A stretch of DNA of 49,037 nt from Bacilli bacterium (GTDB taxonomy: Bacteria; Bacillota_I; Bacilli_A; RFN20; UBA1709), in the NCBI GenBank assembly GCA_028693955.1, contig JAQUUH010000005.1, forward strand, positions 1 to 49,037. The letters are read 5' to 3'. How positions within the stretch are numbered: position 1 is the first letter of the stretch; every line of letters begins with the position of its first letter. The position numbers and the translations under genes were made by a program. Below the pieces are notes generated by a model. It was not told where the DNA came from. It searched no databases and worked only from the letters and a program-made list of their open reading frames with translations. Of the stretch, positions 4,947 to 12,515 are shown piece by piece.

Positions 4947-6056
4947 ATGAAAAGAATTCTAAAATTATTAGCTATTGGGTCTTTAGCGGTAGGAATGGTA
5001 GCATGTGGTGGGAAAACCACTTATGAAATTGCTATGATTACTGACATTGGTTCTATTGATGACAAGTCATTTAACCAAGGGACATGGGAAGGCGTAAAAA
5101 AATACGCTGACGAAAAGAAAATAGACGCTAAGTATTACAAGCCAACAGATGGTACGACTTCATCTTATGTTTCTGCAATTAACCTAGCGGTTGAGGGCGG
5201 AGCAAAAATTATTGTTTGCCCAGGATACTTATTTGAAGAAGCAGTTTATATTAGTCAAACAGCTCATCCAGATGTTAAATTCGTTTTGATTGATGGCGAG
5301 CCACATACAGCAGACTATTCTGATTATAAAACTGAAGAAAACACTTTGCCTATTTTGTTTGCTGAAGAGCAATCAGGATTTTTAGCTGGTTATGCTATTG
5401 TAAAAGATGGTTTTGAAAAATTAGGATTCACTGGTGGTCTTCCAGTTCCTGCAGTTAAGAGATTTGGGTTTGGATATGTTGCAGGAGCATTTTATGCAGC
5501 AGAAGAACTTGGAGTACTTGAAGATGTATCTGTAGCAGATACTCACTTTGAATATTTAATGAGTTTTGATCCAAGTGATACTGTAAAATCATTAGCAAGT
5601 GGATGGTTTAATTCGGGTGTTGAAGTTATATTCTCTGCAGCTGGCGGTGCTGGTAATTCAGTAATGAGTGCTGCATCAGAACAAACCAGTAAATGGGTTG
5701 TTGGTGTTGATGTTAATCAAATTCCACAATCTGAATATGTCATTACTTCAGCAATGAAACAAATTGGGACTGCAGCCTACGATGCATTAACAGATTTCTA
5801 TAATGATGCATGGGATGGTGGAGAAACACTTCATTATAGTGTAACAAATGATGGTGTTGGTATTCCTGATGATTTTTCTCGTTTTAATACATTCAGCAAA
5901 GATGCATATGATGCAATGTTTGCTAAACTTGTAAATGGCGCAGTAGTTGCCCCAGATACATATGATGAATTAGAGACTTTCTGTTCTGCTTTAGGCGTTG
6001 ACATAAGCGACGCTAATGTTTTCCCAACAAAAGAAAAAGCAGATATGTCATTATAA
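4947..6056 (+). CDS. BMP-family nucleoside-binding lipoprotein
   Basis: 369-residue substrate-binding lipoprotein (Bmp/Med/TmpC/PnrA family; NupN-like). The signal peptide has a lysine/arginine start, a hydrophobic core and lipid-attachment Cys at residue 20 (GMVACGG). The mature protein opens with ITDIGSIDDKSFNQGTWEG, the typical nucleoside-binding N-terminus, and later shows IFSAAGGAGNSV and VGVDVNQ. It should sit on the outer face of the membrane and deliver purine nucleosides to the permease encoded downstream. The ribosome-binding site is AGGGAGAGGG. A terminator-like hairpin between this gene and the ATPase probably lets the binding protein be made in excess. Confidence 0.9.
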   Translation: MKRILKLLAIGSLAVGMVACGGKTTYEIAMITDIGSIDDKSFNQGTWEGVKKYADEKKIDAKYYKPTDGTTSSYVSAINLAVEGGAKIIVCPGYLFEEAVYISQTAHPDVKFVLIDGEPHTADYSDYKTEENTLPILFAEEQSGFLAGYAIVKDGFEKLGFTGGLPVPAVKRFGFGYVAGAFYAAEELGVLEDVSVADTHFEYLMSFDPSDTVKSLASGWFNSGVEVIFSAAGGAGNSVMSAASEQTSKWVVGVDVNQIPQSEYVITSAMKQIGTAAYDALTDFYNDAWDGGETLHYSVTNDGVGIPDDFSRFNTFSKDAYDAMFAKLVNGAVVAPDTYDELETFCSALGVDISDANVFPTKEKADMSL

Positions 6057-6073
6057 AATAAGACTTTATTTAG

Positions 6074-6102
6074 TGAAGAGGCATTTTCGCCTCTTCATTT
6101 TT
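6074..6102 (+). terminator. Hairpin between binding protein and ABC genes
   Basis: 9-bp stem TGAAGAGGC / GCCTCTTCA with a 6-base loop and a short T run. It probably acts as a leaky intrinsic terminator or mRNA 3'-end stabiliser, giving more binding protein than transporter. Confidence 0.75.
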
Positions 6103-6121
6103 ATAAAATTAGGAGGATTCT

Positions 6122-7669
6122 ATGGAAAAGTATGCAGTTGAAATGCTTAATATAACTAAAAAATTTGGTTCCTTAATTGCAAATGATAATGTAAATCTAA
6201 AAGTAAAAAAAGGAGAAATACATGCTATTCTTGGAGAAAATGGTGCAGGAAAGTCCACATTAATGTCAATTTTGTTTGGTCTTATTCAACCAGATTCAGG
6301 AATTATAAAAATAAATGGTGAAGAAGTAAAAATAGAGAATCCTAATGTTGCAAATAAGTTAAAAATTGGTATGGTTCACCAACACTTTAAGTTGGTTGAA
6401 CGTTTTAATGTTGTAGAAAATATTGTTTTAGGTTATGAAACAATAAACAAAAAAGGATTTGTAGATTATGAAAATCCTAAGAAAAAAATTATTGAATTGA
6501 GTCATAGATATCATTTAAATGTTGATCCAGAAGCACTAATAAGTAATATTACTGTTGGAATGCAACAAAGAGTGGAAATACTAAAAATGTTATATAGAGA
6601 TGCTGATATATTGATATTTGATGAGCCAACAGCGGTCTTAACTCCTCAAGAAATTGAAGAATTAATGGGCATTATTCGTAATTTTGCCAGTGAAGGGAAA
6701 TCAATAATAATTATTACCCATAAATTAAATGAAATTAAGATGCTTGCTAATAAATGTAGTATCTTGCGTAGAGGTAAATATATGGGAACAATAGATGTTA
6801 ATAAAACCTCCGTTGAGCAAATGGCAGAATTAATGGTTGGTAGAAAAGTTGATTTTAATGTTGAGAAAAAAGCTCCTAAAATAGGTGATACCATTTTGGA
6901 AGTTGAAAATATAGTTGTAAAAAAAGATAATAATAAAAACCATGTAAATGGTGTTTCTTTTGATGTAAAAGAAGGAGAAATTGTAGTAATTGCCGGTATT
7001 GAAGGGAATGGGCAAAGTCAACTTATAAAAGCAATTACTGGCTTAATTCCTTTTGATTCGGGTAAAATAAAATTAATAAATGAAGATGTTACTAAGTCCA
7101 CAATTAGACATAAAATAGAACTAGGAATGTCACATATACCAGAAGATAGACAAAAAGATGGTTTAATATTGGACTATAGTTTACAAGAGAATTTTATATC
7201 GTGCGAGTATTATCAAGAAAAATTTCAAACTAAGGGATTTTTGAAGTTTGAAGCGATTAGTAAATATGCGGATAATTTAATTGAGAAATTTGATGTTAGA
7301 TCAAGTAATGGAAAATATAGCATTGTTAGAGGAATGTCTGGGGGGAACCAACAAAAGGCTATTATAGCTAGAGAAGTTTCAAGAAAAGGTAAATTATTAA
7401 TTGCTGTTCAACCAACTCGTGGTCTTGATGTGGGAGCTATTGAATATGTACACAAGAAAATGGTCCAGGTTCGTGATAGTAAAGTAGCTGTTCTTGTTGT
7501 TTCTTTAGAACTTGATGAAGTTATGTCAATAGCCGATAGAATTCTAGTTATGTATGAAGGAAAGATTGTTTTGGAAACTACACCAAAAGAAATAACTATG
7601 GAAGAAATTGGATTGTATATGGCTGGGTCAACAAAAAAGGATTTGGGTGGTAAAGATGGTAAAAAATAA
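6122..7669 (+). CDS. nupO: Nucleoside ABC transporter, duplicated ATP-binding protein
   Basis: 515 residues with two ABC domains in tandem, the RbsA/YufO arrangement. Domain 1 has Walker A GENGAGKST (about residues 38-46), signature VGMQQRVEILK and Walker B ILIFDEPTAVLTP. Domain 2 has a degenerate Walker A (GIEGNGQSQ, about residue 293), signature MSGGNQQKAIIAREV and an altered Walker B ending QPTRGLDVG; this asymmetry is normal for the family. It powers the two permeases that follow. The AGGAGG ribosome-binding site is strong. The last 14 bases overlap nupP. Confidence 0.92.
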   Translation: MEKYAVEMLNITKKFGSLIANDNVNLKVKKGEIHAILGENGAGKSTLMSILFGLIQPDSGIIKINGEEVKIENPNVANKLKIGMVHQHFKLVERFNVVENIVLGYETINKKGFVDYENPKKKIIELSHRYHLNVDPEALISNITVGMQQRVEILKMLYRDADILIFDEPTAVLTPQEIEELMGIIRNFASEGKSIIIITHKLNEIKMLANKCSILRRGKYMGTIDVNKTSVEQMAELMVGRKVDFNVEKKAPKIGDTILEVENIVVKKDNNKNHVNGVSFDVKEGEIVVIAGIEGNGQSQLIKAITGLIPFDSGKIKLINEDVTKSTIRHKIELGMSHIPEDRQKDGLILDYSLQENFISCEYYQEKFQTKGFLKFEAISKYADNLIEKFDVRSSNGKYSIVRGMSGGNQQKAIIAREVSRKGKLLIAVQPTRGLDVGAIEYVHKKMVQVRDSKVAVLVVSLELDEVMSIADRILVMYEGKIVLETTPKEITMEEIGLYMAGSTKKDLGGKDGKK

Positions 7670-8786
7670 AATTAAGAAAATTTTAAAAGCAGCTTCACCA
7701 ACATTAATTTCTATTGGTATAGGGCTAATATTTGGTTTTTTGATTATGCTTGTTACTGCACCTCAAGAAGCCTTCCAAGGACTTATAATGTTACTTACTG
7801 GTGGTTTATCAACAGGACTAAAAGGAATTGGTGATGTTCTTTATTTTGCTGGTCCTTATATACTTGCAGGACTTGCTGTAGGCTTTGCTTTTAAGACAGG
7901 CCTATTTAATATTGGAGCCTCTGGTCAAATAATGATAGGTGGATTTGTGGCATTATATATTGGAATAAACGTTCCAATGCCTAGTGGTATTCATTATTTA
8001 GTCGCGTTAATATGTGGAGTTTTAGCTGGAGCTATAGTGGGAGCTATACCAGGAATATTGAAGGCTCTTTTTAATGTGAATGAAGTTGTTACTTGTATAA
8101 TGTTAAACTATGCAACTTTATATTATGTTATGTTTCAATTAGTTCAATCAAATATGGTTAACCCTTTGACAACATTTAGTAAGAACCCGCTTTCAACAGC
8201 CTATGCACCGAATTTGAATTTTGATCAAATATTTAATGGTTCTTCACTTGATATTTCAATATTTATTGCTTTAATAATTGCCGTAGTTATTCATATAATT
8301 TTGAATAAGACAACATTAGGTTATGAATTGAAAGCTGTTGGTTACAATCCTCAAGGCAGTAAATATGCAGGAATAAATAATAAAAGAAATATGATAATAT
8401 CAATGGCTATTTCAGGAGCATTGGCAGGTTTGGCTGGAGTTTGTTTATATTTGAATCCAACAAGTGGTAAAAGATTAACAATGAGTGCTTCTTTACTTAG
8501 TGAAGGCTTTGATGGAATAACAGTTTCTTTACTTGGGGCCTCTAATCCTATAGGCATATTTTTCTCGGGACTATTTATATCATACATAAGAGTTGGAGGT
8601 TCAAGACTACAATTACTAGATGGGATTTCACCAGAGATAATTTCTATTATAACAGCAACTATTATATATTTAAGTGCCTTAAGTTCAGTTTTACAAAGAC
8701 AATTCTCACGGATTGTTGGTTTTATAAAAAAGAAAATATTAAAACATAAAGTTGTTGAAAAGACTAAAGGAGGCGAAACAGAATGA
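7656..8786 (+). CDS. nupP: Nucleoside ABC transporter permease (NupP/YufP-like)
   Basis: 376-residue polytopic membrane protein of the BPD_transp_2 family, with around 8-10 hydrophobic segments. The family-typical GLFNIGASGQIMIGG loop lies near residue 85, and GYELKAVGYNP in the cytoplasmic coupling region. The ATG at 7656 has GGGTGG 5 bases upstream and overlaps the ATPase gene. A longer reading from an upstream in-frame ATG would add a charged, unlikely N-terminus. It pairs with the next gene, with which it shares an ATGA overlap. Confidence 0.88.
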   Translation: MVKNKIKKILKAASPTLISIGIGLIFGFLIMLVTAPQEAFQGLIMLLTGGLSTGLKGIGDVLYFAGPYILAGLAVGFAFKTGLFNIGASGQIMIGGFVALYIGINVPMPSGIHYLVALICGVLAGAIVGAIPGILKALFNVNEVVTCIMLNYATLYYVMFQLVQSNMVNPLTTFSKNPLSTAYAPNLNFDQIFNGSSLDISIFIALIIAVVIHIILNKTTLGYELKAVGYNPQGSKYAGINNKRNMIISMAISGALAGLAGVCLYLNPTSGKRLTMSASLLSEGFDGITVSLLGASNPIGIFFSGLFISYIRVGGSRLQLLDGISPEIISIITATIIYLSALSSVLQRQFSRIVGFIKKKILKHKVVEKTKGGETE

Positions 8787-9766
8787 GTATATTTTATAAT
8801 ATATTGCAATCAGTTTTAGTTTCAATGGTACCTTTACTTATTGTTGCCTTAGGAGGCATGTTTTCTGAACGTGGAGGAGTAACAAACATCGCTCTTGAAG
8901 GTATTATGATTATGGGAGCCTTTTCTAGTGCAGTAGTCTTAATTTTATTTATTGATAAAATGCCAATGCAACTTTTGTTTATAATTGCTATGCTTGTTGG
9001 AGGACTTTCGGGATTGCTATATAGTTTTTTACATGCATATGCAGCAATATCAATGAAATCTAATCAAGTTATATCAGCAACAGCTTTAAATCTTGCAATA
9101 GCTCCATTAGCAGCTGTTTTGATAAAAGCAGTTCGAAAAGTTGATTCAACTTGGTTAGAATGGGGAGGAAAGACCTTTATAATAAAAGAAGTTCCTCTTT
9201 TGTCAAAAATACCTTTTATTGGAGATATTTTCTTTAAAAATGTTTTTATTAGTTTTTATATTGGAATTGCTATTTTAATAATTTCTTCAATTATTTTATT
9301 TAAGACAAAATTTGGATTAAGATTAAGGGCTTGTGGTGAAAATCCTCACGCTGCTGATTCTTTGGGTGTTAATATTTATAAAGTTAGATATGCTGGAGTA
9401 TTGATAAGTGGATTTTTAGCAGGTCTTGGTGGAGCAATATTTCTTATAACTATAAATGGGACAGCCTTTAGAGCAGAGGCAACAGCAGTATCAGGTTTTG
9501 GATTTTTGGCTTTAGCTGTTTTGATATTTGGTAATTGGAATCCAAAAAGAATAATTTTTGCAGCAGTTTTCTTTTCTTTTTTTAGAACAATTGATGCAAA
9601 CTTTACATTGTTAAATGGTTTAATTAATAATGCTATCCCTGTAAACTTCCGTAATTTATTTAAGATGGTGCCATATATAGCTACTTTGATTTTGCTAATA
9701 TTTACTTCTAAAAATTCTGGTGCACCAGCGGCAGATGGTCAGGTATATGACCCTGGTCAAAGATAG
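8783..9766 (+). CDS. nupQ: Nucleoside ABC transporter permease (NupQ/YufQ-like)
   Basis: 327-residue integral membrane protein, the second BPD_transp_2 permease of the system. GVTNIALEGIMIMGAFSS near residue 36 and LRLRACGENPHAADSLG in the cytoplasmic loop are family hallmarks. The ATG overlaps the nupP stop (ATGA), with AAAGGAGG behind it. This is the last gene of the uptake operon. It is followed by the pyrG leader, so imported nucleosides and CTP synthesis are neighbours here. Confidence 0.88.
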   Translation: MSIFYNILQSVLVSMVPLLIVALGGMFSERGGVTNIALEGIMIMGAFSSAVVLILFIDKMPMQLLFIIAMLVGGLSGLLYSFLHAYAAISMKSNQVISATALNLAIAPLAAVLIKAVRKVDSTWLEWGGKTFIIKEVPLLSKIPFIGDIFFKNVFISFYIGIAILIISSIILFKTKFGLRLRACGENPHAADSLGVNIYKVRYAGVLISGFLAGLGGAIFLITINGTAFRAEATAVSGFGFLALAVLIFGNWNPKRIIFAAVFFSFFRTIDANFTLLNGLINNAIPVNFRNLFKMVPYIATLILLIFTSKNSGAPAADGQVYDPGQR

Positions 9767-9819
9767 ATAATAAAGTTTTTTTGCACCTTTGAAAAGATGC
9801 TAAATATTTTTTAATCATA

Positions 9820-9848
9820 TTGAATTGGCATTAAAAATTTGATAGTAT
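9820..9848 (+). promoter_or_regulatory. pyrG promoter with GGGC initiation site
   Basis: -35 TTGAAT (9820-9825), 17-base spacer, -10 TAGTAT (9843-9848). The expected start falls at 9855, the first G of GGGC (9855-9858). That is the same initially transcribed sequence used by pyrG genes of Bacillus and Lactococcus. Confidence 0.6.
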
Positions 9849-9863
9849 AAAGAAGGGCAATAT

Positions 9864-9891
9864 ATGTCTCCTTGCTAGGAGACATTTTTTT
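9864..9891 (+). terminator. pyrG leader attenuator (CTP-responsive, predicted)
   Basis: Stem ATGTCTCC / GGAGACAT (8 bp, perfect) with a TTGCTA loop and a T7 run, located between the predicted GGGC start and the pyrG coding region. The upstream arm is pyrimidine-rich (TCTCCTT), as required for pairing with a G-extended 5' end. It may also receive readthrough from nupQ. Confidence 0.7.
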
Positions 9892-9902
9892 ATTTTATTT
9901 AA

Positions 9903-11537
<1,635 letters not shown>

Positions 11538-11568
11538 TATATTAAGTTTGTAAAAGGAGGAATTCTAT

Positions 11569-12423
11569 ATGGGTCTTGTTAATATGAAAGAGATGCTAAT
11601 TAAAGCAAAAAATGGAAAGTATGCAGTAGGAGCCTTTAATATAAATAATGTTGAGTGGACACAAGCTATACTTGATGAATGTCAAGCAAATAATGCACCA
11701 GTAATATTAGGGTGTTCAACGGGTGCTGCAAAATATATGGGCGGATGGAATACTGTGGTAGGAATTGTAAAAGGACTTTTAGAAGATCGTAAAATTACCA
11801 TACCTGTGGCCTTGCATCTTGATCATGGAGAAAGTTTTGAAGATTGCAAAAAAGCAATAGATGCTGGCTTTACTTCAGTAATGATTGATGCATCTAAAAA
11901 GCCTTTTGAAAAGAATTTAGAAGAAACTAAAAAAGTTGTTGAATATGCTCATGCAAGAAATGTCAGTGTTGAAGCTGAACTTGGTAAAGTTGGAGGTCAA
12001 GAAGAAAATATTATTGCTGAATTAATGTATGCAGACCCTAAAGAATGCGTAATTATGGCCAAAGAAACAGGCATTGATTGTCTAGCTCCGGCTCTTGGAT
12101 CAGTTCATGGTCCATACAAAGGAGAGCCAAAATTAGGCTTTAAAGAAATGGAAGAAGTTAAAAAATTAACTAATCTACCACTTGTGCTTCATGGAGGATC
12201 AGGAATACCTGACTATCAAATAAAAAAAGCAATAGAGTGTGGGACAGCAAAAATTAATGTTAATACAGAATGTCAACAAGCCTGGACAGCAATTGTACGC
12301 GAAGTTTTATCAAAAGATAGTAAAGTTTATGATCCAAGAAAAATAATTGGTCCAGGAAAAGAAGGAATTCGTTTCGTGGTTAGAACAAAAATTGAAGTGT
12401 TTGGAACAAAAAATAAAGCATAA
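11569..12423 (+). CDS. fba: Class II fructose-1,6-bisphosphate aldolase
   Basis: 284 residues, the standard class II length. It cleaves fructose-1,6-bisphosphate to dihydroxyacetone phosphate and glyceraldehyde-3-phosphate in glycolysis. Zinc and catalytic motifs are visible: LHLDHGES with the His/Asp pair near residue 84, [22 protein letters not shown] and [20 protein letters not shown] supplies the phosphate-binding end. A very strong AAAGGAGG ribosome-binding site precedes the ATG. It follows pyrG by 31 bases, with no terminator seen between them. Confidence 0.96.
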
Positions 12424-12434
12424 ATATAAATTTA

Positions 12435-12463
12435 TTGCTAAATATAAGATGATATGTTAAAAT
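12435..12463 (+). promoter_or_regulatory. rpmE promoter (extended -10)
   Basis: -35 TTGCTA (12435-12440), 17-base spacer, -10 TAAAAT (12458-12463) preceded by TG at the extended -10 position. Confidence 0.55.
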
Positions 12464-12479
12464 CTATGAGCAACTTACT

Positions 12480-12497
12480 TTGAAGGAGTTACTTCAA
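12480..12497 (+). promoter_or_regulatory. Small hairpin in the rpmE leader
   Basis: TTGAAG / CTTCAA, a 6-bp stem with a GAGTTA loop, lies in the 5' leader 18 bases before the L31 start codon and just ahead of its AAGGAG. Leaders of L31 genes in Firmicutes are known candidate autoregulatory RNAs; whether this one belongs to that class is inference. Confidence 0.4.
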
Positions 12498-12515
12498 GGC
12501 GGAAGGAGAATGGTT

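Follow-up and report, generated by a model that had tools for sequence, protein, structure and literature searches.

The question raised by this locus is whether the short leader of pyrG, the gene for CTP synthase, in a 49,037-nucleotide stretch of contig JAQUUH010000005.1 (the whole stretch analyzed, referred to here as the window) can sense CTP without the help of a protein. A CTP-sensitive reiterative-transcription attenuator was reportedly described for Bacillus subtilis pyrG by Meng, Turnbough and Switzer in 2004. The Bacillus scheme, in which low CTP leads to a stall before a C residue, addition of G residues and antitermination, is summarised in PMC4448216 and PMC4403831. Streptococcus agalactiae and S. 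pyogenes also show reiteration of G at pyrG, and a terminator downstream of the pyrG start has been reported for S. agalactiae (PMC4448216; PMC6431027).

Organization of the pyrG leader

The pyrG gene is located at positions 9918–11537 of the forward strand, on which all features below also lie, with the start codon at 9918 or 9924 (Pfam CTP_synth_N, 7e-128; GATase, 9e-42). A Bmp/ABC transporter operon ends upstream at 9766 and a class-II fructose-bisphosphate aldolase gene follows downstream. The promoter consists of a -35 hexamer TTGAAT (9820–9825), a 17-nt spacer and an extended -10 element TGA-TAGTAT (9840–9848; TG at 9840–9841, hexamer at 9843–9848). Each hexamer matches four of the six consensus bases, and with just 8 of 12 consensus bases in total the promoter was missed by a simple promoter scan. 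After a 6-nt gap the -10 hexamer is followed by GGGC (9855–9858), such that the first G is 7 nt past the -10 and the tetramer occupies +7 to +10; this is the likely start region, with GGG as the putative slippage tract and C9858 as the CTP-demanding residue. The register of promoter and GGGC was settled by comparison with the leaders of a sister genus (L002) and of another family of the order (L003), where TTGAA(A/T)-17-TGATAGTAT-6-GGGC is nearly letter-identical, including TTGAAA with an identical 17-nt spacer and the extended -10 sequence TTTGATAGTAT. An alternative promoter, TTGGCA-15-TATAAA, with +1 near C9858, was rejected as these relatives keep the TTGAA-17-TGATAGTAT-6-GGGC arrangement.

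Only 9 nt precede a hairpin at 9864–9885 (ATGTCTCCT-TGCT-AGGAGACAT), which has a 9-bp stem, a 4-nt loop, the 5′ arm UGUCUCCUU and a T tract behind it (9885–9891, the first T doubling as the stem end). The leader folds at -13.0 kcal/mol with a z score of -4.2, none of 200 shuffled sequences was equally stable, and this hairpin with its T-run was the only terminator found by a scan of 9000–12500. The motif TCTCCTT (9867–9873) lies in the 5′ arm, running on into the loop, and, based on folding energies and arm composition, is the proposed site of pairing with poly(G). A likely Shine-Dalgarno sequence, GAGGAAAG (9905–9912), lies 3′ of the T-run. The switch is thus compressed into a leader of approximately 37 nt, which is unusually compact. 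A candidate leader peptide inside the hairpin (ATG TCT CCT TGC TAG) was dropped, as a ribosome-binding site would not fit in front of it and the version in Thomasclavelia (L083) has no stop codon.

The transporter operon adjoining pyrG upstream (4947–9766) encodes a Bmp/PnrA-like binding protein, an ATPase and two permeases, an ABC operon of the nucleoside-uptake type, which may be functionally connected with the supply of nucleotides. The gene upstream of pyrG in L002 differs.

Proposed mechanism and folding with extra 5′ residues

With pyrG downstream, GGGC at the normal distance from the -10, an intrinsic terminator, a pyrimidine-rich 5′ arm and conservation in relatives, the window element is very probably the known CTP-sensitive reiterative-transcription attenuator of pyrG. 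This reading is supported by the order and register of the elements, by their conservation, by the pyrimidine-rich composition of the arm and by folding energies that make it plausible, while the start nucleotide, the slippage, the CTP dependence and the antitermination are inferred by homology with the studied Bacillus and streptococcal cases. In this scheme RNA polymerase would initiate at GGG (9855). When CTP is ample, the templated C at 9858 would be added, the 9864–9885 hairpin would form and most transcription would end before pyrG. When CTP is scarce, the polymerase would pause past GGG and the transcript would slip back, allowing extra G residues to join; once a G-extended transcript resumed, its 5′ poly(G) would pair with UGUCUCCUU as the arm emerged, blocking the terminator so that pyrG would be transcribed. 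The sensor would be free of protein, and pyrG would be controlled by attenuation.

Folding of the window leader with added 5′ residues indicated that competition between poly(G) and the terminator is energetically plausible. With no extra G the terminator was the best fold (-13.0), and the 5′ end plus the arm, with the 3′ arm still unmade, folded at only -2.4. Before the 3′ arm exists, the hairpin between poly(G) and UGUCUCCUU was predicted at -10.4 with four extra G residues and at -13.2 with seven, and with seven the poly(G) hairpin replaced the terminator as the full-length minimum. A or U in place of the extra G residues gave values of approximately -3. Even 10 extra G residues left the terminator as the most stable equilibrium fold of L002, L003 and an Anoxybacillus leader, and a kinetic, co-transcriptional competition would therefore be required there if the mechanism applies.

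A search of the 910-kb genome with the pattern TANNAT-N6-GGGC-N18-48-TTTTT returned a single match, at the window pyrG leader. The reversed-pattern control returned five, so the bare pattern is just moderately specific and it is conservation that bears the weight.

Conservation and distribution of GGGC leaders

Comparison with related leaders, as proposed in the earlier note, returned the same layout and order of elements in L002, L003 and L083. The promoter with its start on GGGC and the terminator with a TCTCCTT arm ahead of the ribosome-binding site, both claimed in that note, were found as described, the start itself being predicted from the conserved register, and the elements line up as in the Bacillus-type mechanism, in relatives as well and in spite of a different upstream gene.

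Starts were then surveyed by recording the tetramer at +7 to +10 after each strong -10 (5/6) in 230 pyrG upstream regions, with no start presupposed and expected counts taken from dinucleotide shuffles. GGGC was found 54 times (0.7 expected) and GAGC 33 times (1.2 expected), the next most frequent tetramer reaching 19. Among pentamers with C at +10, AGGGC (37), AGAGC (33), TGGGC (10) and CGGGC (7) stood out, all others occurring three times or fewer. A total of 76 leaders in the class were classified as GGGC leaders. At least six of the seven innermost bases of the 5′ arm were pyrimidines in 82% of 57 GGGC leaders; among 417 other terminators at the same loci, which served as controls, the proportion was 9.6%. 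By the same measure 88% of GAGC leaders with a called terminator were pyrimidine-rich. Together with the fold energies, this agrees with the claim that a poly(G) end can pair with the stem. A loose class-wide pattern of GGGC followed by TNTCYCY was too noisy to be used alone.

Approximately one third of the sampled upstream regions, many of them from the window's own order, contained no such leader by the classifier used. In some of these pyrG lies close behind another gene, and several genomes of the same order had no such leader or remnants only. The earlier suggestion that the mechanism is extended to this lineage is a fair one, but the extension is modest, as the GGGC leader is widespread in the window's class and in Bacillales and G reiteration is already documented in two streptococci. 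What the window adds to this protein-free metabolite sensor is a lineage of uncultured, reduced-genome bacteria, and the wider survey matters more than the window element.

In common with the B. subtilis pyrG attenuator, the window element has GGGC after a sigma-A type promoter and a C/U-rich 5′ terminator arm, is apparently protein-free and lies upstream of pyrG. Bacillales leaders, among them L031, L033 and L037, have the same layout, although the gap from the -10 to GGGC is 6 nt in the window and was scored as 7 nt for most Bacillales. Unlike B. subtilis, the window has a very short leader, with 9 nt from the C-adjacent start to the stem, an extended -10 and a transporter operon as the upstream gene. 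For S. agalactiae and S. pyogenes pyrG, G addition was seen by RNA-seq, whereas the window element is known from its sequence.

A candidate AGAGC variant in related leaders

GAGC took the position of GGGC in families f28, f17, f18 and f10, in two genera of f23 and in one of f16, giving 37 GAGC-type leaders (one with GAGT), 16 of which were from f28. Examples upstream of pyrG include L228, L229, L120, L188, L195, L164, L159, L215 and L148, among others. The start was preceded by A in 37/37 GAGC-type leaders, to give AGAG, versus 58/76 GGGC leaders (p 6e-4). The motif [CU]UCUC was found in 36/37 and 23/76, respectively (p 1e-12), and YYCC in 18/37 versus 71/76 (p 2e-7), these p values ignoring relatedness. 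The difference in duplex energy between G and GA extensions (G minus GA) had a median of -3.4 in GGGC leaders and -1.4 in GAGC leaders (p 0.004 at family level). On a tree of pyrG proteins the type of start changed at least three times on well-supported branches and six times on the best tree. When independent pairs from this tree were compared, the arm shifted on average with the start and not against it, the pairs being too few for significance. The pattern TATAAT-N6-GAGC-N18-48-TTTTT, searched for in 25 AGAGC genomes, was located mostly at pyrG and was rare elsewhere, and matches to the GGGC pattern were few, none of them at pyrG places.

The AGAGC leaders share with the window the promoter register, the C at +10, a terminator or hairpin sequestering the Shine-Dalgarno sequence, and pyrG downstream. 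They differ in having AGAG for GGG and [CU]UCUC for the arm, and slippage by a dinucleotide would be needed. S. agalactiae is reported to reiterate dinucleotides, mostly AU, at transcription starts (PMC4448216). Two-base (AG) slippage is the simplest reading of these leaders and the sequences suggest it as a candidate variant. We lean slightly towards a scheme for about six families in which AGAGC is the start, the polymerase stalls before C when CTP is low, and added (AG)n pairs with [CU]UCUC in a terminator or in a hairpin hiding the Shine-Dalgarno sequence. GGGC and AGAGC would have replaced one another several times, along with a matching change in the arm; the window GGGC would then be one state of a two-state family.

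Some observations speak against AG slippage. Poly(G) would still outpair poly(GA) on the arms of f28, which keep UUCUCC, and f28 contributes 16 of the 37 leaders. In whole-strand folding 8 G residues stabilized most arms, those of AGAGC leaders included, more than (GA)4, because G-U pairs help. As whole-strand energies fail to separate poly(G) from poly(GA), the case for AGAGC rests on the motifs, the register and the relative shift in duplex energy. A few f17 leaders also pair the start into the base of the hairpin, which provides another reason for its conservation. In some f17-type leaders (L076, L130, L200, L205) the Shine-Dalgarno sequence GAGG makes up the 3′ side of the hairpin, with U7 and ATG behind it, and such a hairpin could therefore both terminate transcription and hide the ribosome site. 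In L130 (GAGT) and L212 (GAGGGT, with a CTCTCTC arm) T replaces the limiting C at +10; these leaders might reflect UTP sensing or decay.

No description of the AGAGC variant was found in the open-access literature searched, and the variant may be new. If AG slippage does occur, regulated reiterative transcription would extend beyond runs of a single base. A start and a terminator arm that change together would in that case provide natural evidence of compensation, for a mechanism whose case has so far been built on a few model species. The variant is a more interesting by-product than the window element, which itself joins a known attenuator type.

Alternative explanations for the window leader

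The hairpin could be a plain constitutive attenuator or a leftover terminator which just lowers pyrG expression or ends transcription of the transporter operon, with GGGC a coincidence. Intergenic intrinsic terminators are indeed common and the ABC transporter operon ends upstream at 9766. However, the hairpin sits 3′ of a conserved promoter, and GGGC in a fixed register and the pyrimidine-rich 5′ arm are kept in genomes with other upstream genes, so that we regard this explanation as improbable. Sensing of nucleotide supply at the start site is slightly less probable again: here low CTP would alter start choice or promoter escape at GGGC with no involvement of the hairpin, in the manner of the reiterative transcription that gives unproductive transcripts at E. 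coli pyrimidine genes such as carAB (PMC6245113). Neither the conserved pyrimidine richness of the arm (82% versus 10%) nor the way in which start and arm change together in the AGAGC leaders would be explained by such a process.

The leader might also serve control by another route, in which GGGC is just a preferred start and the regulator is an RNA-binding protein acting in trans or a riboswitch for a small molecule; PyrR-type protein control of pyr operons is a precedent (PMC4403831). We consider it the least probable of these explanations, given that only 9 nt precede the hairpin, that no Rfam 15 family matched anywhere in the window at the gathering score, and that the alternative pairing requires no ligand pocket. 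CTP-sensitive attenuation by reiterative transcription remains the preferred reading of the window leader.

Other compact leader designs

Leaders shorter in design were also found in the survey. A leader reading GGGCACCCCC occurs in f5 and in part of f4, both of them families of the window's own order, and f20 terminators can begin inside the start itself (L197: GGGCACCCACAAATGTGGTGC). The leaders L015, L022 and L224 (all GGGCACCCCC), as well as L197, L129 and L126, are very compact, with the C run for pairing with poly(G) beginning 2 nt past GGGC, or with a stem that includes the start. In L015 and L022 the Shine-Dalgarno sequence, as GGAGG-U7, appears to form the 3′ arm of the terminator.
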